Of a stretch of 54,254 bases of DNA, positions 34,026 to 54,135 are shown one piece after another. The notes beneath the pieces were generated by a model, which did no database searches, was not told the DNA's origin, and saw only the letters and a program-made list of their open reading frames with translations. A program made the position numbers and the translations under genes. Source of the stretch: Kineosporia babensis (GTDB lineage Bacteria > Actinomycetota > Actinomycetes > Actinomycetales > Kineosporiaceae); NCBI RefSeq assembly GCF_021129305.1, contig NZ_JAJOMB010000037.1:1-54254 (forward strand), given 5' to 3'. How positions within the stretch are numbered: the stretch's first letter is position 1; each line of letters starts with the position of its first letter.

Positions 34026-35045
34026 ATGGCTGATCTGATCCGCATCTCGGAGGTTGCTCGGGAGCTCGGAGTCTCTCCCTCGCGCTTGCGTCAATTGGCC
34101 GACAGTGGGGTCATTCCCTCGGAGCGGTCGGCTGGAGGGCATCGTCTCTTCGATCCGGGGGCCGTCCGTAGCGCTCTGGCGCAGCTCATGTCGACCTCGG
34201 ACTTCAGCTCTCGCAGATGGTCGCGGCCGGACTGGCATCGCACGCTCGAACTTTCCGGTCTTCAGGAGGACGTCGTCTGGCAGGACGCTCTGGCTGAGGC
34301 CCTGCATGACCGGATGAGTCAGGAAGGCCGCTCCACGGCCGCCTACGCCTTCACCGAGATGCTGAACAACGCGATCGACCATTCAGGGGCCGAGGAAGTC
34401 CAGGTCAGTGTTTGGATCTCGCGTGTGGAGGCTCGCTTCGAGGTCGCGGATCGAGGCCGAGGTGCTCTGCCACACCTGAGGGAACGTCTGGCACTGAGCG
34501 ATCTCTACGACGCGCTCGGTGAGCTCACCAAGGGCAAGACGACGACGGACCCGGACCGTCATACCGGTGAGGGGATCTTCTTTACCTCGAAAGCGGTCGA
34601 TGTGTTCACGCTGGAGTCGGGAGGGATCAGGTGGACCGTCGACAATGTGCGCCGTGACCAGGCCGTGGGTGCCAGTGATGTCACTGAAGGCACCAGGGTG
34701 CGCTGGGAGATGGATCCGTCCACGGAGATTCCCATCTCAGAGGTGTTCTCGGCCTATACAGATGAGGATCTCGACTTCGCGCGCACGCGGACCGTGGTCA
34801 AGCTCTTCGGCTTCGGGGTTCGCTTCGTGAGTAGGTCCGAGGCCAAGCGCCTGTTGCGCGGGCTGGAGCGTTTTTCCCACGTCACCATGGATTTCAGCGG
34901 TGTGGAGGAGGTCGGCCAAGGATTCGTGGACGAGATCGTCCGGGTTTGGCCACGGCAGCATCCGCAGACCGTTGTCGAACCGGTCGGAATGGTCGGGCCG
35001 GTGGAGTTCATGGTCCGCAGGGGCCTGCCCCGTCGGGACGGCTGA
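34026..35045 (+). CDS. MerR-type HTH, GHKL ATPase and STAS-like (DUF4325) fusion
   Basis: 339 residues. Residues 4-52: MerR-like HTH (LIRISEVARELGVSPSRLRQ, LADSGVIPSERSAGGHRLFD). Residues 105-230: GHKL ATPase with N-box AYAFTEMLNNAIDHSGAEEV, G1 VADRGRG and a G2-like HTGEGIFFTSKAVDVF. Residues 255-335: STAS-like domain (SRSEAKRLLRGLERFSHVTM, DFSGVEEVGQGFVDEIVRVW, PVEFMVRRGLP). There is no His acceptor, so it is not a classic kinase; ATP-dependent regulation of its own HTH, like anti-sigma/STAS switches, is inference. A -10-like TAGCTT just before ATG suggests leaderless mRNA. Confidence 0.82.
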   Translation: MADLIRISEVARELGVSPSRLRQLADSGVIPSERSAGGHRLFDPGAVRSALAQLMSTSDFSSRRWSRPDWHRTLELSGLQEDVVWQDALAEALHDRMSQEGRSTAAYAFTEMLNNAIDHSGAEEVQVSVWISRVEARFEVADRGRGALPHLRERLALSDLYDALGELTKGKTTTDPDRHTGEGIFFTSKAVDVFTLESGGIRWTVDNVRRDQAVGASDVTEGTRVRWEMDPSTEIPISEVFSAYTDEDLDFARTRTVVKLFGFGVRFVSRSEAKRLLRGLERFSHVTMDFSGVEEVGQGFVDEIVRVWPRQHPQTVVEPVGMVGPVEFMVRRGLPRRDG

Positions 35046-35235: not shown

Positions 35236-37005
35236 GTGATGCAGAAGGACACCGAGCTTGCTCCGTTGACGTTCCGGGTGCTGGGGCCCCTCGTCGTGAT
35301 GCGGGGTTCGCGTCGGGTCGAGATCTCTTCCGGTAAGCAGCGTGCCCTGCTCGGGCTTCTGCTGGTCCGGGCCGGTGAGCCGGTCGCCCGGCAGACCATC
35401 ATCGATGCGCTGTGGGGCCCGGACGCCCCGGCCTCCCGGATCAACCTGGTCCACACCTACGTGAGCCGGGTGCGACGGGCGGTCGACGCCGGTCGTGGGG
35501 TTCGCGGGCGGGAGTCCTGGCTGGTGACCAGGGGGTCCGGTTATGCGATCCGGACCGAGTTCTGCGATCTGGATCTGCTGCGTTTCCGGGCTCTGGTGGC
35601 CGGTGCCGAACGGGAAGAGCAGCTGCCGCAGCGGTTGCGCCTGATGCTGGACGCACTTGAGCACTGGCGTGATCCGTGCCTGGGCGATCTCGACGAGCAC
35701 CTTGCGGAACATCCGTGGATCCGGGATCTCAACCAGGAGTGGACCGACGCGGTGCTGGCCACAGCCCGGATCGCCGGTGAGCTGCGGCGCACCGGCGAGA
35801 TCGTGCCGCATCTGAGAGCGGTCAGCGCGCTCAACCCCCTCAACGAGGCGGTGCACGCCTGGCTGGTCACCGGACTGGCGGACTCCGGAGCCCAGGCGGC
35901 TGCCCTCGCCGAGTACGCACAGATCCGCGGGCGCCTGGTTGAGGAACTCGGGATCGAACCGGGCCCGCACCTGCAGGCGGCCCAGCGTCACGCGCTGGGC
36001 CGGGCTGATCCGCAACCGGCCACACCGTCGCAGGGCGTGGCCCTGATACTCGGCGATCAGAGCGATTTCGTCGGGCGGGAAACGCTTCTCGACTCGCTGC
36101 GCGCGGAGATGGGCCGGTGCTCGGCGCTGGTGCTGACCGGAGCCGGCGGTGCGGGCAAGAGCGCTCTGGCCGTGCAGCTGGCCCACCGGCTGGCGCCGCA
36201 GTATCCGGACGGGCAGGTTCACATCGAGGCTCAGCATGGCGATGCCGTCGTGCCCCGGCTTCAGCGACGGGTGCTGCACGCCCTCGGGCACACGTGTGAT
36301 CAGTTACCCGGTGACGCTGCTGAGCTCGCAGTGGTGTACCGCTCAGCCCTCGCGGACCGTCGTCTGCTCTTGGTGTTCGACAACCTGGCCGACGAGACCC
36401 AGTTGGCTCCTCTGCTTCCAGGCAACCAGACCTGCGCCGTGGTCGCGACCAGCCGGGGGCGACGCCGCAACTTTCCCAATCATCAGGTGCGTGAGGTGGA
36501 CTCGTTCACCTTGGCGGAGGGGATTACCTTCCTGGCCCAGATCCTGGGTTCCGAGCGGGTGGCGCAGGAACCGGCCGCGGCGGAAGCGATCGTCCGGCTG
36601 TGCAGCGGGTTGCCTCTGGCTCTGCGCATCGTTGCGGTGCGGCTGGCCGACCGGCCGCAGTGCAGCCTGAGCCGGATGGTGCAACGTCTTTCGAGGCCGG
36701 GCGGACGGATGGCCGAGCTGTCGCTGCCGGGCCTGTGCGTGCGGGCAACCTTCGAGGACGAACTGGATCAGCTGGATGAACCGGCCCGGAAAGCTTTTCA
36801 CGCGATCGGAGGCCGGCGGGACGAGCGTTTCAGTCAGCAGACGGCGATCGACTGGCTGGGCCACAGCGACGACATCGTCGAGGAACTGCTGGGTCAGCTC
36901 ACCGACCGGAGGCTGATCCGCTTCGACGGTCTGGACGAGGGCGGCGGTTCCTGGTACTCGCTGTCGGGACTGAACCGGATTCTGGCTCAGGAGCTGGCGC
37001 CCTGA
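35236..37005 (+). CDS. SARP (BTAD) regulator with NB-ARC ATPase, putative activator of the peptide locus
   Basis: 589 residues (GTG 35236 or ATG 35239). OmpR-like winged helix at 10-100 (TFRVLGPLVVMRGSRRVEIS, SGKQRALLGLLLVRAGEPVA, RINLVHTYVSRVRRAVDAG), BTAD helices at 105-255 (LDLLRFRALVAGAEREEQLP, LNPLNEAVHAWLVTGLADSG, ELGIEPGPHLQAAQRHALG), then an AfsR-like NB-ARC with P-loop GAGGAGKS near residue 300, RLLLVFDNLADETQL (Walker B) and VVATSRGRR. It lacks the C-terminal TPR of AfsR; a separate TPR protein is encoded downstream. SARPs bind 11-bp-spaced direct repeats upstream of a -10 box, and such repeats begin three bases after this gene's stop, in front of the small peptide gene. Confidence 0.92.
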   Translation: MMQKDTELAPLTFRVLGPLVVMRGSRRVEISSGKQRALLGLLLVRAGEPVARQTIIDALWGPDAPASRINLVHTYVSRVRRAVDAGRGVRGRESWLVTRGSGYAIRTEFCDLDLLRFRALVAGAEREEQLPQRLRLMLDALEHWRDPCLGDLDEHLAEHPWIRDLNQEWTDAVLATARIAGELRRTGEIVPHLRAVSALNPLNEAVHAWLVTGLADSGAQAAALAEYAQIRGRLVEELGIEPGPHLQAAQRHALGRADPQPATPSQGVALILGDQSDFVGRETLLDSLRAEMGRCSALVLTGAGGAGKSALAVQLAHRLAPQYPDGQVHIEAQHGDAVVPRLQRRVLHALGHTCDQLPGDAAELAVVYRSALADRRLLLVFDNLADETQLAPLLPGNQTCAVVATSRGRRRNFPNHQVREVDSFTLAEGITFLAQILGSERVAQEPAAAEAIVRLCSGLPLALRIVAVRLADRPQCSLSRMVQRLSRPGGRMAELSLPGLCVRATFEDELDQLDEPARKAFHAIGGRRDERFSQQTAIDWLGHSDDIVEELLGQLTDRRLIRFDGLDEGGGSWYSLSGLNRILAQELAP

Positions 37006-37008
37006 CAG

Positions 37009-37057
37009 TCGGGTCCAGAATCCGGCCAGTTCGGGTCCAGTACCGGTGATCCAGAAT
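37009..37057 (+). promoter_or_regulatory. SARP-type direct repeats and -10 box before the peptide gene
   Basis: Three 11-base units in phase: TCGGGTCCAGA (37009), ATCCGGCCAGT (37020), TCGGGTCCAGT (37031). Units 1 and 3 share ten identical bases 22 apart; unit 2 keeps the CCAG core. A weak -10 CAGAAT lies at 37052-37057, ten bases after the last repeat, close to the 8-base rule for SARP sites. The transcript would start near 37064. Confidence 0.7.
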
Positions 37058-37092
37058 CGATCCCGCCACCAGACGGAAGCGAGGTGACCCAC

Positions 37093-37173
37093 GTGAAGAA
37101 GATCGAGATCCGTAAGGCCGGCCCGGTTCGGATGACGGCCCCGGCCTGCACGACGTACAAGAAGCCGACGTAG
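37093..37173 (+). CDS. Candidate RiPP precursor/signal peptide (26 residues)
   Basis: GTG start with GAGGT seven bases upstream; an in-frame GTG at 37084 would add three residues. The peptide starts MKKIEIRKAG and ends ACTTYKKPT, with a single Cys (residue 19), four Thr, one Tyr and six Lys. Basic, not a signal sequence, no hydrophobic helix. It stands alone in the gap between the SARP gene and an RRE-like/M50 protease gene, directly after SARP-type repeats and before an attenuator-like hairpin, the classic layout for a precursor needed in excess. Leader/core border and any modification (Cys, Thr and Tyr are candidates) are unknown. Confidence 0.65.
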   Translation: MKKIEIRKAGPVRMTAPACTTYKKPT

Positions 37174-37188
37174 GCCGACTCGCTGGTC

Positions 37189-37226
37189 AGCGGCACCGGG
37201 GCTCGATGGTGGCCCCGGTGACCGCT
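37189..37226 (+). terminator. Attenuator-like stem-loop between peptide and protease genes
   Basis: CACCGGGGC (37194-37202) pairs with GCCCCGGTG (37212-37220); AGCGG/CCGCT extends the stem to 14 bp with one bulged A at 37221; nine-base loop. A TTTT (37234-37237) follows eight bases later. Partial termination here would give more peptide than enzyme message. Confidence 0.7.
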
Positions 37227-37249
37227 CCGGCGCTTTTCCGGGGGGATTC

Positions 37250-38455
37250 ATGACATCGGTGACCACGCGCGAACAGTGGCTCGACGCGGCGCTGAGCCTG
37301 CACCGTCTGGTCTACCAGCCGGAGGGCGAGCAGGTAACGGTCGGCCGTCGCGACATCGACGTCTACATCGTGGTGCCTCCGGACGGCGCCGAGGTGATCC
37401 GGCGCCTCGAGGAAGGCCGTACGCCGCGCGAGACCGCGGACTGGTACTTCACGGAGTACGGTGAAACGCTCGATATCCATGACCTGGTCGAGTCTCTCGA
37501 GGAATGCCAGTTCCTGCGACCGCCGGACGCCGGTGAGCGACCACCGCCGGAGGCCGTGCGCTGGAGGAGGCTGGGCCGGGTGCTGTTCAGCCTGCCCGTG
37601 CTGCTGTCGTTCGGGCTTGCGATCGTGGCCGCCGCGGTGGCGGCCGCCCAGAAGCCGGACCTCCTGCCCCGGTACGAGCACATGTTCTTCAGCTCCTACT
37701 ACTCGATCAGTCAGCTGGGGCTGTTCCTGATCGGGATCCCTCTCATCATGGTCCATGAGGCTTTTCACGCCCTGGCCGGACGCCGGCTGGGCCTGAACTC
37801 CCGGCTGCGTCTGGATCGCCGCCTGTACTTCGTCGTCCTCGAGACCTCGATGGACGGCCTGGTCACCGTGCCCCGCCGGCAGCGCTACCTGCCGATCCTG
37901 GCCGGCCTGCTGTTCGATGTGGTCTCGATCGCCTCGATGATGCTGATCGCCGACCTGACCCGGACGCCGGAGGGGAGTTTCAGCAATGTGGGACGATTGT
38001 GCCTGGCGGTCGCGCTCGTCTCGTGGCTGCGGGTGCTGTGGCAGTTCAACTTCTACCTGCGCACCGACCTGTACGTGCTGTTCACCACCGTACTCGGCCT
38101 GAACGACCTGCACGGGGTGACGAAACAAGTCATCCGTAACCGTTTTCACCGCCTTCTGGGTCACCCGGAGCGAGTCGTGGGGCCGGACGGCTGGGATCCG
38201 GCCGACGTGCGGGCCTCACGCTGGTACGCCTGGCTCGTCGTCGTGGGATACACCGTCAGCCTGGTCAGTTTCGCCTGGCTCGTGCTCCCGGCGACGCTGC
38301 ACATCATCACCGGGGTGGCGGAACGCTTCGCCGCCGGAACCCGGACACCGTTGCCGGAACTGATCGATTCGGCCGTCGTGACCGCGGCCGCCCTGGGACA
38401 GCTCGCGATCTGGTTCGCCCTGCGGGCCCGGGACCGCCGAAATGCCGTCGGATGA
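37250..38455 (+). CDS. Membrane M50-type zinc metalloprotease with PqqD/RRE-like N-terminus
   Basis: 401 residues; ATG start with GGGGGG upstream. Residues 20-90 (VTVGRRDIDVYIVVPPDGAE, VIRRLEEGRTPRETADWYFT, IHDLVESLEECQFL) look like the PqqD/RRE winged-helix peptide-binding fold seen in RiPP enzymes. Then about six transmembrane helices, with LIMVHEAFHALAGRRLG giving HEAFH (169-173) as zinc site, and GLLFDVVSIASM (Asp223) as possible third ligand, as in S2P-like and 'putative peptide zinc metalloprotease' families. Expected role: bind the 26-mer and cut or export it at the membrane. Its stop overlaps the Shine-Dalgarno of the next gene. Confidence 0.8.
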   Translation: MTSVTTREQWLDAALSLHRLVYQPEGEQVTVGRRDIDVYIVVPPDGAEVIRRLEEGRTPRETADWYFTEYGETLDIHDLVESLEECQFLRPPDAGERPPPEAVRWRRLGRVLFSLPVLLSFGLAIVAAAVAAAQKPDLLPRYEHMFFSSYYSISQLGLFLIGIPLIMVHEAFHALAGRRLGLNSRLRLDRRLYFVVLETSMDGLVTVPRRQRYLPILAGLLFDVVSIASMMLIADLTRTPEGSFSNVGRLCLAVALVSWLRVLWQFNFYLRTDLYVLFTTVLGLNDLHGVTKQVIRNRFHRLLGHPERVVGPDGWDPADVRASRWYAWLVVVGYTVSLVSFAWLVLPATLHIITGVAERFAAGTRTPLPELIDSAVVTAAALGQLAIWFALRARDRRNAVG

Positions 38456-38466
38456 AGGAGAACAGC

Positions 38467-40557
38467 GTGAAGCGACACCACTGGATCCACGGCGGCCGAC
38501 GCGCGGACCGGGCCCGGGCCCTGAGCGGGATGAACCTGCCACCGGTGCTGGCGGTCCTGGACGCCCACCGTCGCCGGCGCGGCCCGTACACGGCGGCGGG
38601 CACCCTGCTGCGGCAGATCATCGACCACGCCCTGCAGCTGGATCCCGGTATCGGTCCGCGTCACTTCAACGAGATCGCCATCGCCGCGCCGGAACTGGCC
38701 CATCGGGTACCGCCGGTGCTGGCCGCGTTCGAATGGTCACTCGATCGTGAGGAGAAGACCCGCTACTACTCCCGGCTGCACACCTTCAACCTGGCCAACG
38801 GCCTGGCCGCCCTGCTGCGCGATCATCTGCGGGCTCTGGGCGGCGGCCCGCGCACCCTGGTCCTGGAGAACCTGGACGAGGCCGACGTCACCGATCAGGA
38901 GTTCGTCGCGGTGCTGCTGCGGCGGACCGACCTGCCGGACCTGACCGTCGTGGCCTGCACCGGCACCGCGCAGGTCACCGACCCACCCGGTGAGTTACCG
39001 ATCTCCCTGGTCCGTGAGCTGGACCGATGTGCTCAGGCGCGGGCTGTGACCGCTTCGGAGAACATCGACGACGGTGAGCTCGAGGAATTCGTTGAGGGAT
39101 GCTGCCTGGACGACGCACCAGGCCCGGTTGCCCGCTACGCCCGGCTGTCCGACGAGGAGCGCGCAGCTCTGCACAGCGCCGCCCTGGAGTCGGTGCTGTC
39201 CGCCGTGCACGAAGAAGGGGAGATCTCACTGGGGCTGGGGGCCGCTCTCTTTCATGCCGAACGCGCCGGTGACGAGCGTCTGGTCAATCTCCTGCGGGAG
39301 GCGGTGCGACGGTGCCGGGAGTTCGGGCTGTACTCGGCTGCGGTGGAGCTGGGGCGGCGAGGCGTGTCCCTGGTCGACCCGGTTGCCGACGAGGACGTGT
39401 GGTGGGAGTTCACGCATGCCGTCGCGGTGTGCCTGTCCTCGCTGGCCCGGGCGGACGAGGCGGCCGAGCAGTTCCAGGAGGCGGCCGTGCGCAGCCAGAA
39501 GCACGGCGTCCACTCGAACATCACGTACGGCATGGCGATGCTGTATGCGCGGTACTACCCCGAGCCGCGGCGGGACCCGCGTCTGGCCCGGATGTGGATG
39601 AACATGCACATCGTGCTGACCCGGCAGGTCGAGGATCCGGCCAAGCGGGCGTTCGAGTCGGTGTTCGCGCACAACGGGCTGGCGCTGATCGAGGTCCGGG
39701 AGAAGCAGCCGGAGGTGGCCCTGCGGCTGCTCGAGGAAGGAATGAGCCGGCTGGACGCTGAACTCGAACCGGGCCAGTACCGCCTGCACCGGATCGTCCT
39801 GCGCTACAACCGGGCCCAGGTCCTGATGATGAGCGACCGTACCGAGGAGGCGCTCCAAGAGTACTGGGCGGTGGCCGAGGCCGACCCGGAGTTCTACGAG
39901 CACTACTTCCAGATCGGCAACCTCCTGCGGCGACTGGGGCGGCCCGCCGAAGCAGTAGACGCCTACCGGACCGCCCTGGCCAAGTCTCCGCCCTTCCCCG
40001 AGGCCCACTACAACATCGGGGATGCCGAACTGACCCAAGGACGAGTACAACCGGCCCTGGAAAGCTTCGCCGAAGCAGTTGAACTCGATCCCACCCGGCT
40101 CGAGGCGCACGTCAGCTACATCGAGCTCCTGGTTGAGGTGGGCCGGCTCGACGCAGCCCGGGCCGCGCTGGACCGGGCCCTCACCGAGATCCCTGCTCGA
40201 CCCGAACTGCTCACCCTCAAGGCCCAGATCCTGAGCTCCGGCGCCGCGGCCCGGCAGTGCCTGGACGAGGCCTTGCACGCCGACCCCCGCTACCCTCAGG
40301 CCTGGGCAGTACGGGCGGAGTTGGCCTACCAGGAAGGAGACCTGGCCGGGGCACTGGCCGACTTCGATGCTGCCGTGGCTCTGGACGACCAGCCGTCCTT
40401 CCGCTTCAACCGTGGGGTGGTCCACCAGGACAGCGGAAACCTGACCGAAGCAGCAGCCGACTTCGCGGCGGTCCTGGAATCGTCCGCCGATGACGAGGCT
40501 CTGGAGCGGCTGCATCAGTGCACCCAGCCGTCGGGCTCGGTGGCGCATGCCGGTTGA
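38467..40557 (+). CDS. TPR protein with degenerate ATPase-like N-domain
   Basis: 696 residues from GTG 38467, placed six bases after AAGGAG; that site overlaps the protease stop. Residues 60-200 resemble an AAA/STAND-type domain without a P-loop: FNLANGLAALLRDHLRALGG, TLVLENLDEADVTDQEFVAV (Walker-B-like) and LPDLTVVACTGTAQV. From about 240 to the end it is helical repeats, clear TPRs from about 420: EFYEHYFQIGNLLRRLGRPA, EAVDAYRTALAKSPPFPEAH, YNIGDAELTQGRVQPALESF. It may have split from an AfsR-type SARP-NB-ARC-TPR protein and act as scaffold or co-regulator with the SARP or with the protease. Confidence 0.85.
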   Translation: MKRHHWIHGGRRADRARALSGMNLPPVLAVLDAHRRRRGPYTAAGTLLRQIIDHALQLDPGIGPRHFNEIAIAAPELAHRVPPVLAAFEWSLDREEKTRYYSRLHTFNLANGLAALLRDHLRALGGGPRTLVLENLDEADVTDQEFVAVLLRRTDLPDLTVVACTGTAQVTDPPGELPISLVRELDRCAQARAVTASENIDDGELEEFVEGCCLDDAPGPVARYARLSDEERAALHSAALESVLSAVHEEGEISLGLGAALFHAERAGDERLVNLLREAVRRCREFGLYSAAVELGRRGVSLVDPVADEDVWWEFTHAVAVCLSSLARADEAAEQFQEAAVRSQKHGVHSNITYGMAMLYARYYPEPRRDPRLARMWMNMHIVLTRQVEDPAKRAFESVFAHNGLALIEVREKQPEVALRLLEEGMSRLDAELEPGQYRLHRIVLRYNRAQVLMMSDRTEEALQEYWAVAEADPEFYEHYFQIGNLLRRLGRPAEAVDAYRTALAKSPPFPEAHYNIGDAELTQGRVQPALESFAEAVELDPTRLEAHVSYIELLVEVGRLDAARAALDRALTEIPARPELLTLKAQILSSGAAARQCLDEALHADPRYPQAWAVRAELAYQEGDLAGALADFDAAVALDDQPSFRFNRGVVHQDSGNLTEAAADFAAVLESSADDEALERLHQCTQPSGSVAHAG

Positions 40558-41056
40558 CGCCAAGAGTCTGCGGCAGGTGGGCCGCCAGGTGCCTTCGTCG
40601 GTAGCCGTGGTGACTACCGGGGACGGGCTCGGGGTCACCGTCGGTTCGCTGGGCGTGCTGTCGCAGCGCCCGCCGCTGGTGATGTTCAGCCTCACCCGCG
40701 GCAGCCGCGGCCACTGCCTGCTGAACGGGCTCACCCGGTTCCGGGTGAACGTCCTGGCCGAGGAGCAGGCCTGGATCGGCGAGCACTTCGCCCAGGGTGA
40801 ACCCGGCGACCGGGACCTGGTCGGGCTGACCAGCGAGGTGTTGCCCCGGATCCCGGGTGCCGTGGCCCACCTGGAGTGCTCGGCGCGGGAACGGTTCGAG
40901 ATCGGGGACCACACCATGGTGATCGGGCTCCTCGAGCAGGTCGATCTTTCTCCCGGGCGTCCGCTGGTGTACTGGAACCGGGATTACCACAGCTTGTTTC
41001 CGGTCGCCGGGGAGCCGCTGGCCTTCTCCGGCAGGGAAGTTCAGAGCACGACCTAG
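40547..41056 (+). CDS. Flavin reductase (HpaC-like split-barrel) in the peptide operon
   Basis: 169 residues, ATG 40547, overlapping the TPR gene by 11 bases, so co-translated. Split beta-barrel FMN-binding pattern: QVGRQVPSSVAVVTTGDG, GLGVTVGSLGVLSQRPPLVM, FSLTRGSRGHCLLNGLTRF and NVLAEEQAWIGEHFA, ending HTMVIGLLEQVDL. Such proteins give reduced FMN to a monooxygenase or reduce substrates themselves. No flavin monooxygenase lies nearby, so here it may be the modifying oxidoreductase itself (inference). The stop overlaps the stop of the convergent GH3 gene. Confidence 0.88.
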   Translation: MPVDAKSLRQVGRQVPSSVAVVTTGDGLGVTVGSLGVLSQRPPLVMFSLTRGSRGHCLLNGLTRFRVNVLAEEQAWIGEHFAQGEPGDRDLVGLTSEVLPRIPGAVAHLECSARERFEIGDHTMVIGLLEQVDLSPGRPLVYWNRDYHSLFPVAGEPLAFSGREVQSTT

Positions 41057-42882
41057 AGTGCGAGGCCGAAATGGAGCGGGAAGACCGGGTCCTCAGTATC
41101 GCTGGGGACGTCCGCTCGCGAGGCCCGCACCGCGTCCATGGACCGGGGGATCTCGATGGGAAGTCGCCCGCGGGGCGGGAACTTGCCGGTCAGAGCAGCC
41201 AGGACGGCGGCGTCGGAACTACCGTAGTCAGCCACCAGTGCGGAGGTGAACGGCAGCAGGGGAGTGAGGATCGCCGGACGATCGAGGGTGACCACGAGGA
41301 TCAGGGGGCAGCGGTCGGCGATCCGGGACAGGCGGTGGACCAGACCGGGCGGGAAGTCCAGGGACCCCTGGTGGAACCAGGCTTCCAGGAACAGGTCGTC
41401 GCGCGGTTCGAAGGGAGCCATGAGCCGCACGATGGCGACGTCGGCCTCCTGCGGGGATTCGACCGGCTTGGCCCACTCGGAAAGGTGCTCGGTGCTCAGG
41501 TTCTCGCTGTAGGCGGAAATGGAGGACGCCAGGGGCAAGCAGTCGTTCTTGTTCACCAGCAGGGTGGTCGAGTTGGCCTGTGCCTCGAAACCCTGGCGCC
41601 GGAACTCAGCGTTCCCGACGAGACGCTCGGCGGCCTCCACATCCACGTAGGGGTTGTCGAACAACCCCAGGCGGAACTTCACCAGCAGGATCCGGCGCAC
41701 CGACTCGTCGATCCGGGACTCCTCGATCACGCCGCGTTCCACGAGATCGATGAGCAGGTCGACACACTCCTCCCCACCGAACTGGTCGCATCCGGCGTCT
41801 ACAATTTTGGCCATTCGCTGTGATGGGGTGAGCGATTCGACGCCCCAGGCCCGGGCCGGCAGCACCTGTGAGCCGACGTGGTTGTCGTTGACCAGTTCCC
41901 AGTCGGTCACCACGACGCCGTCGTAGCCCAGTTCCTCGCGCAGCAGGCCGGTGACGATCTGCCGGTTGAAGCCGAAGCCCACCTCCTCGATCCGCTCACC
42001 GTTCAGCTCAAGATCGATCGGCATCCCGTAATAGGGCATCATCGCTGCAGTTCCGCGGGCAATGGCTTCGCGGAAAGGCTTGAGGTGGTAGTCGAACCTG
42101 CCGCCCGGGTAGACCTGCTCGCGGCCGTAGGGGAAATGCGCGTCCTCCCCGTCCTTCTGCGGTCCACCACCCGGAAAATGCTTGGTGGTGCAGGCAACGC
42201 TGGACGGGCCGAGGTTCGCTGTCTGAAAGCCGTCGAGATAGGCGGCCGTGAACTCGGCGACCCGGTCGGCGTCATGGCCCATGGTCTGGGCCTGGCGTCC
42301 CCAGCGCGGTTCGGTGGCCAGGTCGACCTGGGGGTGCAGGGCGGCCCGGATGCCGACCGCCACGTACTCCTGGCGGGCCACGTCGGCGAAACGGCGCACC
42401 GAATCCAGATCGTCGAGGGCGGCCAGCCCCAGGCCTTCCGGCCACTGGCTGAAAGGCCCGGCGGAGAAAGCGACCCCGGCGTTCTCGACGAAGGCGTGAC
42501 GGGGATCGGTGCTGATCGTGACCGGGATGCCGTGCGGGGTCTGCTCGGCCAGTTCCTGCAGGTTGTTGTTCCAGGTGGCGGCCTGGCGGGCGGTCTCGAT
42601 CTGGTGCACGTTGAAGTGGTTCAGGTGCTTGCCGAGGACCACCTCGCCGGTGGGGGACTTGCTGATCCGACCCGCGGTCTGGACCAGGTCTCCGTCCGGG
42701 CCGACCTCGATGACGGTCTGGAACATCAGGCCGGCCTTCTCGGCCAGGCTCAGCCGCGCCAGCAGGTCCTCGGTCCGCTCCTCGGCGCTCAGGGAACGGT
42801 TCTCGTACGGATCCAGGACGCCGTTGCCGTTGAGATCACGGTAGACATCGCCGGTTTCGGTGGTGGACTCAGGAATGCGCAT
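41053..42882 (-). CDS. GH3-family beta-glycosidase
   Basis: 609 residues, AAGGAG seven bases before ATG. A Ca-binding-like DLNGNGVLDPYEN opens the protein. GH3 catalytic barrel: EPRWGRQAQTMG, VACTTKHFPGGG (234-240, substrate-binding Lys-His) and VVVTDWEL with nucleophile Asp327; the alpha/beta sandwich domain follows (CPLILVVTLDRPAILTPLLP, ALVADYGSSDAAVLAALTG). A glucosidase, xylosidase or arabinofuranosidase is possible. No signal peptide: it cuts sugars already imported. Last gene of the second sugar operon, ten bases after the permease. Confidence 0.92.
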   Translation of the reverse strand: MRIPESTTETGDVYRDLNGNGVLDPYENRSLSAEERTEDLLARLSLAEKAGLMFQTVIEVGPDGDLVQTAGRISKSPTGEVVLGKHLNHFNVHQIETARQAATWNNNLQELAEQTPHGIPVTISTDPRHAFVENAGVAFSAGPFSQWPEGLGLAALDDLDSVRRFADVARQEYVAVGIRAALHPQVDLATEPRWGRQAQTMGHDADRVAEFTAAYLDGFQTANLGPSSVACTTKHFPGGGPQKDGEDAHFPYGREQVYPGGRFDYHLKPFREAIARGTAAMMPYYGMPIDLELNGERIEEVGFGFNRQIVTGLLREELGYDGVVVTDWELVNDNHVGSQVLPARAWGVESLTPSQRMAKIVDAGCDQFGGEECVDLLIDLVERGVIEESRIDESVRRILLVKFRLGLFDNPYVDVEAAERLVGNAEFRRQGFEAQANSTTLLVNKNDCLPLASSISAYSENLSTEHLSEWAKPVESPQEADVAIVRLMAPFEPRDDLFLEAWFHQGSLDFPPGLVHRLSRIADRCPLILVVTLDRPAILTPLLPFTSALVADYGSSDAAVLAALTGKFPPRGRLPIEIPRSMDAVRASRADVPSDTEDPVFPLHFGLAL

Positions 42883-42892
42883 GGGTATCTCC

Positions 42893-43702
42893 TTACTTCA
42901 GGCCGGTGGTGGCGACGCCCTGGATGAAATAGCGCTGCAGGGCCAGGAAGAGCAGCAGGATCGGGACGATGACCAGCACCGAGCCGGCCAGCAGCAGGCC
43001 GTAGTTGGTGGCGTTCTGCCCGGTGGAGTACAGCGACAGGGCGACCGGCAGGGTGTACCGGTCCTCGCTCTGCGCGGCCACCAGCGGCCAGAGGAAGTTG
43101 TTCCAGGAGCTGAGGAACGTGAGGATGCCGAGTGTGGCCAGAGGCGGCCCGCACAGCGGCATCACGATCCGGGCGAAGATCCGGAACTCGCCGGCGCCGT
43201 CGATCCGCGCCGCTTCCAGCAGGGCGTCGGGGATGCCCAGGATGAACTGCCGCATCAGGAAGACGCCCAGCGGTGCGGTGATGAACGGCAGGATCAGCGC
43301 CGCGTAACTGTTCAGCAGGCCCATCTTGGAGACCATCACGAACAGCGGCACGAAGGTCACCACGCCGGGCACCATCAGGGTCACCATGACCGCGCCGAAC
43401 AGCAGTTTCTTGCCCGGGAAGTCCATCTTGGCCAGGGCGTAGCCGACCATCGAGCAGAACACCAGGTTGCCCAGCACGGTGAACCCGGCCACCACCAGGC
43501 TGTTGGTGAAGAACGTGCCGAAGTGCAGCGGGCCGAACCACTGGCTGTAGTTCTCACCGGTCGGGGTCTGCGGCCACCAGGTCGGCGGCCGCCGCAGGAT
43601 CTCACCCTGGTTCTTGAACGAGCCCAGGGCCATCCAGACGAACGGCAGCAGCCAGGCCACCAGACCGATCGTGAGCACACCGTAGGTCAGACGTCTAGGC
43701 AT
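42893..43702 (-). CDS. Sugar ABC permease, MalG type (second system)
   Basis: 269 residues, six transmembrane helices, EAA motif DALLEAARIDGAGEFRIFAR followed by IVMPLCGPPL. Ends FIQGVATTGLK, typical of this family. It sits nine bases after the MalF-type gene and precedes GH3. Forms the channel with its partner. The ATPase is not encoded here. Confidence 0.92.
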   Translation of the reverse strand: MPRRLTYGVLTIGLVAWLLPFVWMALGSFKNQGEILRRPPTWWPQTPTGENYSQWFGPLHFGTFFTNSLVVAGFTVLGNLVFCSMVGYALAKMDFPGKKLLFGAVMVTLMVPGVVTFVPLFVMVSKMGLLNSYAALILPFITAPLGVFLMRQFILGIPDALLEAARIDGAGEFRIFARIVMPLCGPPLATLGILTFLSSWNNFLWPLVAAQSEDRYTLPVALSLYSTGQNATNYGLLLAGSVLVIVPILLLFLALQRYFIQGVATTGLK

Positions 43703-43711
43703 GATTCCCCC

Positions 43712-44596
43712 TCAGTCCTGCGAGCGCAGCAGCCGGAACTGGACCAGGCTGACCAGGGCGATGACCAGGAACAGCACGTAGCTGGCGGCCGAGGCCAGGC
43801 CGTACTCACCGAAACCGAACTGCTGGTAGGTGTAGTAGGCGACCGACAGGGTGGCGTCCAGCGGCCCGCCCTTGGTCATCACGAAGGCTTCCTCGAAGAA
43901 CTGCAGGTAGCCCACCGAGATCAGGACCGCGCCGAGCAGCAGCGTGGGCCGCAGCAGCGGCAGCGTCACCGAGATCAGCCGCCGGAACGCGCCCGCACCG
44001 TCCATCGTGGCGGCCTCGTGCACGTCCTGCGGAACCGCCTGCAGGCCGGCCAGGAAAATGATCATCAGGGTGCCGACGTTGCGCCAGACCGCCATCACGA
44101 TCAGCGAGGGCAGTGCCCAGGTCGAGTCGTTCAGCCAGTCCGGACCGCTGATCCCCACCACCGACAGGGCCTGGTTGGCCAGGCCCTCGGGCTGCAGGAT
44201 GTAGCGCCAGACCACCGAGATCGCCACGATGCTGGTGACCACCGGAGCGTAGAAGCCGACCCGGAAGAACGCGACGATCCGCCCCGAACCGGAGTTCAGG
44301 GCGAGCGCCAGGGCCATCGCCACGGTCATCGTCAGCGGGATGCCGATCACCACGAACAGCGCGGTGACCAGCATGGCCTGGCGGAACCGGGCGTCGGCGA
44401 ACAGGTCGGTGTACTGCTGCAGGCCGGTGAAGTTCACCGAGAACGGGGTCTGGATGTCCCGGGCGGTGAAGTCGGTGAAGGACATGCCGAACGAGCCGAG
44501 GATCGGTACCAGCATGAACAGCCCGAACACCGCGACGAAGGGCAGGCAGAACCCCCACGCGATCAGGGCCTGCTTGCGCCTGAGCTGGGCGCCCAC
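43712..44596 (-). CDS. Sugar ABC permease, MalF type (second system)
   Basis: 294 residues, GTG start six bases from the binding-protein stop. Six transmembrane helices; EAA loop DVHEAATMDGAGAFRRLISV followed by TLPLLRPTL. The P2-type loop before TM3 (FTGLQQYTDLFADARFRQ) is typical for MalF/UgpA. Partner of the MalG-type permease. Confidence 0.92.
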   Translation of the reverse strand: MGAQLRRKQALIAWGFCLPFVAVFGLFMLVPILGSFGMSFTDFTARDIQTPFSVNFTGLQQYTDLFADARFRQAMLVTALFVVIGIPLTMTVAMALALALNSGSGRIVAFFRVGFYAPVVTSIVAISVVWRYILQPEGLANQALSVVGISGPDWLNDSTWALPSLIVMAVWRNVGTLMIIFLAGLQAVPQDVHEAATMDGAGAFRRLISVTLPLLRPTLLLGAVLISVGYLQFFEEAFVMTKGGPLDATLSVAYYTYQQFGFGEYGLASAASYVLFLVIALVSLVQFRLLRSQD

Positions 44597-44602
44597 CCGG
44601 GA

Positions 44603-45871
44603 TCAGTCCAGCCCGATGGAGTCGGCCTTGTTCTGCAGGTCCTTCAGCGCGTCGGCGGCGCTCACGCTCTCGCGGCGCATCTGCTCCAGGGCCTGGTCCG
44701 CGGCCGCGCCGACCTGCACCCAGGAGGTGCTCACCGGCTGTGCCTTGGCGGTCTCCAGCTGGGTGCCGAACACCTGAAGATCCTCGTCGTCGGCCAGTTC
44801 CTTCTCGTCCCAGGCGGCCTGGACCGAGGGCAGGTCCCCGGAGGCCTGGAACCACGCGGCCTGGGTGTCGGCCTGGCCCAGCCACTGCGCCAGCTTCCAG
44901 GCGCTGCCGGCGTTCTTGCTGTCCTCGAAGACCACCAGGTTGGCGCCGCCGCTGAAGGAGGTCGAGCTGTCCCGGGCCGGAAGCGAGGCCACCGCGTACT
45001 TCTCGTCGAAGTCGTCACCACCGACGGTGGCCAGCGAGCCGCGCATGAACGGGCCGTCGATCAGCATCGGGGTGCTGCCGTCCACGAACGAGTTCTCCTG
45101 CGCCCCGGCCGAGACGTCCGCGTTGGCGTCCGCGATCTTGCCGGTGAAGAAGCTCTGGTAGTACTCGTACGCCTCGACCATCTCCGGGGTGTCCAGCGTC
45201 CACTCGTCGCCGCTGGTGATCTCGGCGCCGTTGGACCACGGCATCCACAGCGTGCCCTGGAAGGCGTCCGGGCCCGCGGGCAGCCGGATACCGAACTCTG
45301 CGCCGGCCTTGGCCTGCATGTCCTTGGCCATCTGCTGCAGCTCTTCCCAGGTGGCCGGGGCCTGGTTCCAGCCGGCCTTTTCGGCCAGGTCGGTGCGGTA
45401 ATAGAGGACGCGGGTGTCCACGTACCAGGGCATGCCCACCTTGCGCTCGCCGGACTCGGTGGTGCTCAGCGCGCCCGGGAAGAAGCCCGAGGTGTCCAGA
45501 TCGGTCGGCACGGTGGCGAAGTCGTCGGCGAAGTCGGCCATCCAGGTGGTGCCCATCATGGCCATGTCGGGGCTGTTGCCACCGGCGATCGCGGTCTGGA
45601 TCTTGTTGTGTGCGGAGTCCCAGGGGATCGCGGTGACCTCGACGTCGGCGTCGGGGTTGGCCTTCTCGAACTCCTCGACGAACTTCGGCAACAACTCACC
45701 CTCGGTGCCCATGGCCCAGATGGTGATCTCGCCGGTCGCCGGGTCCGAGCCGATGGTGGAGGCGGCGGCCGAGGTGCCGCTGTCGGCCTCCTCCGCCCGC
45801 CCACAGGCGCTCAGCGCCAGACCGGCGGTCAGGACGATGGCCAGGGCGGACCGGGCAGATGTCCCTTTCAC
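44603..45871 (-). CDS. Sugar ABC substrate-binding lipoprotein (second system)
   Basis: 422 residues, GTG start with AAGGAGG seven bases upstream. Lipobox LSAC (Cys23). Family 1 signature: ITIWAMGTEGELLPKFVEEF, ANPDADVEVTAIPWDSAHNK, SPDMAMMGTTWMADFADDF, GMPWYVDTRVLYYRTDLAEK. It delivers a sugar to the two permeases; with the GH3 enzyme it suggests uptake of a beta-linked oligosaccharide. First gene after the LacI-type gene; an operator-like palindrome lies 27 bases upstream of the start. Confidence 0.93.
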   Translation of the reverse strand: MKGTSARSALAIVLTAGLALSACGRAEEADSGTSAAASTIGSDPATGEITIWAMGTEGELLPKFVEEFEKANPDADVEVTAIPWDSAHNKIQTAIAGGNSPDMAMMGTTWMADFADDFATVPTDLDTSGFFPGALSTTESGERKVGMPWYVDTRVLYYRTDLAEKAGWNQAPATWEELQQMAKDMQAKAGAEFGIRLPAGPDAFQGTLWMPWSNGAEITSGDEWTLDTPEMVEAYEYYQSFFTGKIADANADVSAGAQENSFVDGSTPMLIDGPFMRGSLATVGGDDFDEKYAVASLPARDSSTSFSGGANLVVFEDSKNAGSAWKLAQWLGQADTQAAWFQASGDLPSVQAAWDEKELADDEDLQVFGTQLETAKAQPVSTSWVQVGAAADQALEQMRRESVSAADALKDLQNKADSIGLD

Positions 45872-52911: not shown

Positions 52912-54135
52912 TCAAGCGGCGGCAGCGGTTGTTTGCGGCGCTACAGGTGTGAAGGTTCGACCGTCGCGAAGGAGCGCCCAGAGGACGTCGACGAGCCTGC
53001 GGGCCAGCGCAAGCAAGGCTTGGGTATGGATGAGGCGTTCGCCGCGTTTGCGGTCGTAGAAGGTACGTGAGGGTCCTTCGCTACGGATGCTGGAAAGCGC
53101 AGCCATGTAGAACACGCGTCTGAGTTTTCGGTTGTATCGCTTGGGGCGGCGTAGGTTTCCCGTGATGCGGCCGGAGTCCTGAGCCACGGGAACGAGGCCG
53201 GCGTAGGAGGCGAGGCGCCCGGAAGTGGCGAAACCGTTGAGGTTGCCCCCGGTCACGATGATGAATTCCGCCCCCAGGATCGGGCCCAGCCCGGGCAGGG
53301 ATTCGATGATCTCTGCCTGCGGGTGGGAGCGGAAGCTGCTGGTGATGAGTTTGTCGGTGTCCTTGATCTCGCGGTCCAGATCCAGCAGCTTCCGGGCCAG
53401 ACGGGCGATGAGTTCGGCGGTAGCTCTCTCGCCGGGCAGTCGCACGCTCTGGGCTGCAGCGGCCTGCACAGCTGCGGAAGCCATGGCCGGGATGCCCTTG
53501 GCCCAGACCTTGTGCTCACGCAGATAGCCGGCGATGCCGTCCTGACCGGCTTCACGGATCGCATCGGGCGTCTGAAAGCCGGTCAGCAGAATCAACGGAG
53601 CGCGGGTGGAGTAGTCGAAAGCTCGCTCCAGGCCGGGGAAGATACCAGTGAGAAGGTCACGCAGCCGGTTAACTCCGCGGACCCAGTCCGCCATCAAATC
53701 CTCGCGATGTCCGCTGAGACGGGTGAGCTCGACCACGAGGTCGTCCGTGGCCGTGACCGGGCTCAAGTCCGAACGCATCCGCGCAGTTTCGGCGATCACC
53801 CGAGCATCTTTGGCATCCGACTTGGTTTCGCCTCGGAAGGCGCCGCTCATGCGATTGACGACCCGGCCCGGCACGTAGACGACCTGCTGGCCGGAAGCCA
53901 ACAGCACCCCCATCAACAGGGCGGCGGCGTTGCTGGTCAGGTCGATCGCCCAACGCACCTGCCCGGCATGCGAGTCGACCAATCGGGCAGCTCTGGCCAG
54001 TAGATCCTCGATCGCCGCTTGATTGTTGGCGACCTTCCGCGAAAAGACGATCTTTCCTTCGGAATCCATCGCGCAGGCATGATGCGTGCTCTTGCCCACG
54101 TCTATTCCGACCCAGAGCAGTAGCCGGTCCACCAT
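52912..54135 (-). mobile_element. IS110-family transposase (apparently intact)
   Basis: 407 residues from ATG 54135, with AGGAGG eight bases upstream. DEDD (RuvC-like) domain: LLWVGIDVGKSTHHACAMDS (first Asp), WAIDLTSNAAALLMGVLLAS and ETKSDAKDARVIAETARMRS (last Asps). Transposase_20 domain: SLPGLGPILGAEFIIVTGG, SGRLASYAGLVPVAQDSGRI with the catalytic Ser region, and RRPKRYNRKLRRVFYMAALS. No frameshift. IS110 elements move through a circular form guided by an RNA encoded in a non-coding end, here expected beyond 54136. The right border lies between 52844 and 52911. Confidence 0.9.

Follow-up and report, generated by a model that had tools for sequence, protein, structure and literature searches.

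The window analysed here, positions 1–54,254 (forward strand) of contig NZ_JAJOMB010000037.1 of Kineosporia babensis (assembly GCF_021129305.1), carries a small operon that probably makes, under the control of a SARP regulator, a ribosomal peptide product of the RiPP (ribosomally synthesized and post-translationally modified peptide) type. The leader of a short precursor would dock on the RiPP recognition element (RRE) of an M50 protease, the protease would cut the precursor, and the tail would be released. The five genes, which encode the SARP, the precursor peptide, the protease, a tetratricopeptide repeat (TPR) protein and a flavin reductase, lie where a first-pass annotation of this DNA had placed them (Table 1). 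The ribosome-binding site of the peptide and the two gene overlaps that it described were likewise found: the protease stop codon (38453–38455) overlaps AAGGAG (38455–38460), the ribosome-binding site of the TPR gene, and the TPR and flavin reductase genes share 11 bases. The TPR gene most likely starts at GTG 38467 rather than at ATG 38452, since the first methionine of the GTG start is nearly invariant among relatives. Taken as a whole, the RiPP reading of that annotation was partly supported.

The peptide gene was assessed through the gene that follows it. A search with the protease in 394 genomes of the class gave 20 matches at E ≤ 0.001, the window's own included, and the seven closest other relatives (loci L002–L008, or L031–L037 in their wide form) were found via the protease and not via the peptide. 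All seven have a short same-strand gene just upstream of the protease, encoding MKKIx[VI]RK[AP]GxVRLT[AT] followed by a differing tail; L031 and L032 are identical, and one of the seven peptides may carry an 11-residue N-terminal extension. Because these relatives were found without the peptide, its recurrence in 7/7 places the window peptide beyond chance. Within leader codons 2–15 of the eight protease-found loci (window included, four of the leaders being nearly alike), the variable columns numbered 5, 1 and 10 at the first, second and third codon positions, and the peptide gene therefore resembles a translated, conserved gene. The first-pass annotation had asked whether a short basic peptide with Cys-Thr-Thr-Tyr at its C-terminus always precedes homologous proteases; a peptide was indeed conserved there, but the exact Cys-Thr-Thr-Tyr end was not.

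A protein-pattern scan of genome contigs with the window M50 protease gave no relative, and for this reason a degenerate DNA pattern of the leader was scanned over one genome per species. At least 117 stretches were obtained and 80 loci were examined. Five Flavobacterium loci (L051, L074, L080, L086 and L122) were dropped as unrelated 15-codon matches without the module, and the second peptide copies in L068 and L096 were dropped wherever loci were counted. The peptide was present in 75 of the 80 loci, all 75 of them actinobacterial and belonging, by their record titles, to 17 genera and four metagenome-assembled genomes. These loci encode 77 peptides of 24–39 residues, 71 of which are preceded by a Shine-Dalgarno-like purine run (loose pattern). 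Tandem precursor genes occur in L068, where the tail ends differ (QG vs TNNGPF), and in L096, where the tails are identical. An M50 gene lies downstream on the same strand in 64/66 loci with at least 1000 nt after the peptide, and a TPR gene is present in 45/45 loci with at least 2500 nt downstream; the TPR protein is the most constant partner in the module. The peptide-maturation operon family is apparently large, widespread and uncatalogued. At close range the operon is strain-specific: a search of 38 genomes, comprising the source genome of the window, five more from its genus, seven from its family and 25 from its order, found the protease in the source genome alone.

The gene content around the module was surveyed in two sets of proteins. 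In the window, the Pfam scan covered 30 open reading frames (ORFs) at 20.1–54.1 kb, operon and one overlapping pair included, with short ORFs and the first 20 kb lying outside it. Elsewhere, 106 of 179 neighbour genes were scanned, namely 56/59 downstream (two of the three omitted were cut by the locus end, and one was a short piece at the locus edge) and 50/120 upstream (hand-picked, mostly the nearest). Among the 106 proteins, only Flavin_Reduct (14) and the SARP domains (9 and 8) had more than four members. In agreement with the first-pass annotation, no common RiPP enzyme was found in the 30 window ORFs or among the 25 commonest of the 145 neighbour families, where radical SAM, YcaO and lanthipeptide families were absent.

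The tails of the precursors vary in sequence but nearly always include two particular residues. Both Cys and Tyr occur in the tail of 68/70 distinct peptides; in a slightly different set, 67/69 tails contained both, whereas the Cys and Tyr content of the M50 and TPR proteins would predict 2.7. This count is free of ascertainment, since the search pattern did not include the tail. The exact tail CTTY was rejected as a conserved feature: Cys and Tyr alone recur, and their order varies. None of the seven precursors tried matched a Pfam or NCBIfam model. The locus family presents what is generally expected of a RiPP, a ribosomal precursor with a conserved leader and a variable core. The abundance of Cys, with four or more residues in several tails, would also suit a peptide that binds a metal such as copper or zinc, in which protease-released tails such as CYCYGCCCCGG are the functional part. 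We regard this as quite improbable, given that many tails, the window's included, contain a single Cys and that neither a metal transporter nor a metal regulator was seen among the 25 commonest neighbour families.

The window protease alone had no sequence match in Pfam, NCBIfam or the PDB, and its family was described from an alignment of 54 relatives (45 close and 9 distant). Over these 54, with close and distant members not separated, Pfam assigned Peptidase_M50 to eight and PqqD to one, and NCBIfam assigned NF041824 (daptide_HExxH) to four and NF058609 (LiaK/YydH, the epipeptide metalloprotease) to one. H169, E170, H173, D223 and D273 were each invariant in 45/45 proteases, and the HExxH residues were likewise invariant in the alignment of 54, which bears out the HEAFH motif that had been noted in this membrane protein. 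The combination of a membrane protein, HExxH and a downstream Asp is that of the M50 family, with Asp223 and Asp273 both candidate ligands. In the AlphaFold model, built with the 54 family members (mean pLDDT 94.6), residues 21–85 form three strands followed by three helices (E-E-E-H-H-H, β3-α3). Among the best 50 of 241 Foldseek matches in the PDB, those with a probability of 0.94–1.00 were TbiB1 with leader, TfuB1 with leader, SkfB, TigE and ThcOx, all of them RiPP proteins and the last three also RRE-bearing; target-normalised TM-scores among the matches listed were 0.67–0.72 for TbiB1 and TfuB1. The E-E-E-H-H-H order is the one demanded of an RRE in a 2025 paper on these domains (PMC12710340). 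A single-sequence search with the RRE stretch gave nothing meaningful. An RRE-like fold of the protease N-terminus is supported by this predicted structure, as the first-pass annotation had proposed, although the E-values are weak. That annotation had staked its proposal on a conserved peptide and on a PqqD/RRE-like fold; both were looked for, and neither proved to be missing.

Daptides were discovered through the fusion of an RRE to a site-2-type protease (PMC10036551), and daptide loci (MpaA/MpaP) share with the window the N-terminal position of the RRE, short precursors nearby and Actinomycetota among the hosts. The window operon might accordingly be read as a divergent daptide locus whose RRE-M50 fusion is the MpaP equivalent; NF041824 matches four family members, and the window peptide happens to end in Thr. 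The precursors and tailoring genes make this reading hardly credible. Daptides are defined in the same text by an ELExMEAP leader and an invariant C-terminal Thr, whereas among the 70 distinct peptides the leader motif occurs in none and the C-terminal Thr in one. Daptide oxidoreductase, aminotransferase and methyltransferase genes were absent from the 30 window ORFs and did not recur among the scanned neighbours: two methyltransferase domains matched two members each of the 106 proteins, and aminotransferase and alcohol dehydrogenase were not among the 25 commonest families. In addition, a TPR partner is unmentioned for daptides in the available part of PMC10036551.

The model of the TPR protein (pLDDT 94.6) contains an N-terminal α/β domain and a long TPR superhelix. 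The 50 PDB matches listed for it were generic TPR superhelices, and a profile of the N-terminal domain found no significant solved relative in the PDB. AAA_16 matched 17/25 N-terminal domains of these proteins, covering in the window protein only the second half of the profile. The P-loop region of the window protein reads RGPYTAAGTLLR and lacks the lysine, which is likewise missing in the other TPR sequences inspected (12 of 45, one of them a gap). The domain may thus be a pseudo-NTPase of the STAND kind. Actinobacterial loci of the FxSxx-COOH and HaaA RiPP systems also have NTPase-TPR proteins (FxsT and HaaT); in the window it was the NB-ARC part of the SARP that matched NCBIfam models of the FxsT/HaaT type, whereas the TPR proteins studied here match neither family, lack the P-loop lysine and have no adjoining radical SAM gene among those scanned. 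Over 45 loci, pairwise distances of M50 correlated with those of the TPR protein (r = 0.93) and of the tail (r = 0.72), values that were not reached in 2000 permutations, though common descent by itself can produce such a correlation.

The flavoprotein is the variable member of the module. Flavin reductase was found downstream on the same strand in 12/27 loci with at least 4500 nt, and no match to it was obtained in 7/7 close relatives, one of which (L037) is a 5.6-kb contig ending soon after the TPR gene. As an essential member it was therefore rejected. In L031, L032, L033 and L035, an Old-Yellow-type FMN oxidoreductase gene follows the TPR gene where the window has the flavin reductase (Oxidored_FMN 7.7e-65 for L031, the other three being assigned by blastp cluster), and L034 and L036, at 20 kb each, contain no relative of either enzyme.

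The window SARP (BTAD 8e-23, Trans_reg_C 2.1e-08, NB-ARC 2.4e-13) has a 41–43% identical relative adjoining the module in 4/7 close relatives, and SARP relatives were found in 15/75 loci of about 8 kb. Six bases past its stop codon begins the array GGTCCAG-AATC-CGGCCAG-TTCG-GGTCCAG. Counted back from the peptide start, the array ends at 52 bases and its first TCCAG is at 79. SARPs bind heptameric direct repeats with 4–15-nt spacers at target promoters, as described in the text available of PMC10972967, and direct heptamers of this kind stand upstream of the presumed target gene, which makes binding a prediction. A four-slot TCCAG scan reached ≤1 of 200 shuffles in only 5/11 SARP loci and also picked the non-SARP locus L034. 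As it separated the SARP loci only in part, it was rejected, and the 22-bp form TYCAG-N17-TCCAG was counted instead. Within 300 nt upstream of the peptide, this form was present in 10/11 loci with a more than 38% identical SARP and in 0/72 others (the latter including two pairs, L036/L081 and L037/L114, that apparently represent the same genome twice, as their peptides match), vs 0.005 expected by chance per round of 11 mononucleotide shuffles. It lies 75–90 nt before the peptide in the 10 loci, six of which are not independent, since the form was chosen after viewing the window, L031, L032, L035, L033 and L070. The only close-SARP locus without the motif, L050, holds just a SARP fragment at the locus edge. 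The 11-bp-phased SARP-type heptamer array before the peptide is new here and had escaped the first-pass annotation.

The constancy of the TPR protein, which is kept even in two loci without M50, and the position of the array before the peptide also invite a signalling interpretation. The M50 protease would release an unmodified or disulfide-linked tail, and the TPR protein, the NB-ARC SARP or both would sense this pheromone, a signal between cells that controls secondary metabolism. The tails are short and track the protease tree, no modifying enzyme recurs among the 25 commonest neighbour families, and a SARP adjoins the module in a subset of loci. However, this subset is small, the TPR protein shows no recognisable DNA-binding domain, and the arrangement of leader and RRE together with the recurring flavoprotein points to biosynthesis. 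We consider the pheromone circuit rather unlikely.

Under the RiPP-type reading, the SARP would bind the array and switch on the peptide, protease, TPR and flavin reductase genes, as suggested by the co-occurrence of array and SARP. The constant leader KKIxVRKAGxVRLT would dock on the N-terminal RRE of the protease; the fold is predicted, and both the binding and its cytosolic side are presumed. If MpaP (daptides) and EpeP (epipeptides) are a guide, the intramembrane HExxH site may cleave the precursor at the RLT-[SA]-x-A region or directly past it, and the variable Cys/Tyr tail may be released to the outside. As the constant partner, the TPR protein with its degenerate NTPase domain could act as a scaffold for the precursor, for the protease or for a tailoring enzyme. 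Least certain is the flavoprotein, which, where present, would most likely do or feed a redox step on the Cys or Tyr of the tail; this assignment is a guess. It is possible, though with the balance somewhat against it, that the loci constitute a new and widespread actinobacterial RiPP class, marked by its MKKIxVRKAGxVRLT leader, RRE-M50 protease and pseudo-NTPase-TPR protein. Cys and Tyr of the tail would then be joined or oxidised by a chemistry outside the known RiPP enzyme families, and the modifying machinery would be the TPR protein, either on its own or together with a flavoprotein. If the tail is modified, the enzyme should be found among two or three proteins whose kinds have no established role in peptide modification, or else outside the locus.

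Several points weigh against a RiPP-type product. The whole case is computational and was built from sequence and prediction. Conservation of the leader in the 75 pattern-found loci is there by construction, since the pattern fixes most leader positions, and only the eight protease-found loci (window included) give leader conservation independent of the search pattern. For the RRE, the first 100 residues of the window protease alone had no Pfam match, and the E-values of the Foldseek matches were weak at 0.04–0.4 (best 0.043, among the best 50 of 241). Whole-protein profile matches were weak as well (TbiB1 E 0.012, TfuB1 E 0.27), and the domain-only profile gave TbiB1 at E 0.051 and TfuB1 at E 0.033, unrelated chains appearing at E 0.26 and above. 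Since the locus encodes no modifying enzyme of a recognised kind, the product could be an unmodified peptide; the flavin gene was not found in 15/27 loci. The module itself is not uniform: L071 and L092 have the peptide and then the TPR gene with M50 missing, L090, cut short, looks alike, and a distant plasmid relative (L166) has a tail without Cys or Tyr. As to regulation, nine of the 72 loci counted as others have less similar SARPs and lack the motif. Coming mostly from related strains, the 11 SARP loci cannot be counted as so many independent events: four fall in one family, and five are in genera of the Streptosporangiaceae. The window is the outlier that makes the motif case, since its family differs from that of the four related loci.

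In L071, L090 and L092, the peptide MKKI[IV][IV]RKPGTVRLTGTSSVIHKG stands directly before the TPR gene, with a GNAT-like gene, identified by eye, ahead of the peptide. GTSSVIHKG, the tail in these loci, is the sole tail type of the 70 without Cys and Tyr, and the absence of M50 there may represent natural loss or an alternative processing route. In L166 (NZ_CP109482.1, a linear plasmid of Streptomyces sp. NBC_01450), an M50-TPR pair is accompanied by the leader MRKISVRRTEPIKVTS near the end of a 57-aa hypothetical protein. Transposase genes flank this module on both sides, and the module may therefore move. In L166, the one annotated relative examined, the gene products are named only as hypothetical proteins or as a TPR protein. 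Annotation easily overlooks such a family, whose precursor is tiny and without a model match and whose annotated relative carries such generic labels. It forms a small, defined and testable system in which a single leader, RRE protease and TPR partner go with a tail that nearly always contains a Cys and a Tyr, and the SARP array offers a handle to switch on such clusters.

Machines of this kind are known, since RRE-protease fusions occur in daptides and M50 cleavage occurs in epipeptides and pearlins. In the available part of PMC10885120, M50 proteases cut epipeptides and pearlins, and EpeP is thought to export its peptide too. Epipeptide (EpeX/EpeP, YydF/YydH) and pearlin (TglG, TmoG) loci thus resemble the window operon in a membrane M50 protease that cuts a ribosomal peptide (same source), and differ from it in their precursors and enzymes: neither a radical SAM epimerase nor a LanB-like peptide aminoacyl-tRNA ligase was found in the 30 window ORFs or among the 25 commonest neighbour families. 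With lasso systems, the likeness lies in the RREs TbiB1 and TfuB1, the closest solved folds to the protease N-terminus among the matches listed. Lasso leaders also have spaced Gly and Thr. Here, in contrast, the RRE is fused to M50, and no lasso cyclase or leader peptidase gene was present in the 30 window ORFs or among the 25 commonest of the neighbour families. Biphenomycin-like clusters, which according to the text available of PMC12026744 have a TPR-arginase and a metalloprotease, were also considered and set aside, as neither arginase nor MNIO was apparent among the genes of the window operon. In its precursor family, its TPR partner and its flavoprotein, and in lacking their modifying enzymes, the module differs from every class tested. 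In the literature searched, subscription papers and supplementary files aside, no paper among those listed was recognised by title and abstract as describing this gene set, and searches with the leader string and the gene combination found none. In the text available, RRE-Finder (PMC7470986) and its 2025 update (PMC12710340) do not mention the group, and these proteases may well sit unnamed in the data sets of both.

Another set of loci surrounds the distant M50 relatives. In L038–L043, L045, L047 and L048, M50 is paired with an RRE-ThiF (E1-like) protein, identified in L038 and L040 by Pfam. A related short peptide is also present in five of the nine (L038, L040, L042, L043 and L045), for example MKKKLEVKIRKLEKIETTINRGGQSG (L038), MKIEVRKVEAVKATQFMT (L040) and MKITVVKVERIEATRIHLDPDAGGA (L045). 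These loci with short K-rich peptides share with the window operon a homologous M50 (24–30% identity) and, in several cases, a related leader, but have a ThiF/E1-like partner instead of the TPR protein and flavin reductase. They are possibly a sister peptide system with an adenylating enzyme and a class of their own; no paper in the literature searched was recognised as describing the pairing of RRE-ThiF, M50 and a short peptide. On the reverse strand in L044 (10691) and L046 (10748), the peptides MKKLIVRRLESVKTSAATSCSVVVA and MKKLVVRKLEPIKTSANADCVPAAA stand directly before M50 relatives, with no member of the ThiF or TPR clusters there.

Table 1. Features of the peptide operon in the window (positions counted from the first base of the window).
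Feature	Position	Strand	Basis and remarks
SARP regulator gene (DNA-binding + BTAD + NB-ARC)	35236..37005	+	Pfam; likely activator of the peptide operon
Three heptamers GGTCCAG-N4-CGGCCAG-N4-GGTCCAG	37012..37040	+	Exact 11-bp period; putative SARP-type binding array
Ribosome-binding site of the peptide, GAGG	37081..37084	+	Read from the sequence
Precursor peptide MKKIEIRKAGPVRMTAPACTTYKKPT, 26 aa, GTG start	37093..37173	+	Leader about residues 1–15, variable tail 16–26
RRE-M50 intramembrane metalloprotease gene	37250..38455	+	Predicted RRE about residues 21–85; HEAFH 169–173; Asp223 and Asp273 invariant
Putative degenerate STAND/AAA_16-like NTPase domain (P-loop lysine missing) + TPR superhelix	38467..40557	+	Pfam, model, alignment
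Flavin reductase-like protein (HpaC/StyB type)	40547..41056	+	Pfam Flavin_Reduct 8.5e-27; optional member of the module

Outside the operon, the scanned window ORFs comprised sugar-transport, glycosidase, regulator, flavodoxin-like, M20 peptidase, hydrolase, transposase and unmatched products. Near the end of the window, at 52912–54135 on the reverse strand, lies an IS110-type transposase gene (DEDD_Tnp_IS110 1e-50), consistent with the operon's scattered occurrence among relatives, although no link between the two was established. Convergent with the operon, and probably unrelated to it, the reverse-strand genes at 41053–45871 encode a glycoside hydrolase of family 3 and an ABC sugar-transport set (two permeases and a binding protein). 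Just upstream of the SARP gene, at 34026–35045 on the forward strand, a single protein unites a MerR/excisionase-like helix-turn-helix, HATPase_c and the STAS-like DUF4325, an unusual fusion of DNA-binding, kinase and STAS parts.

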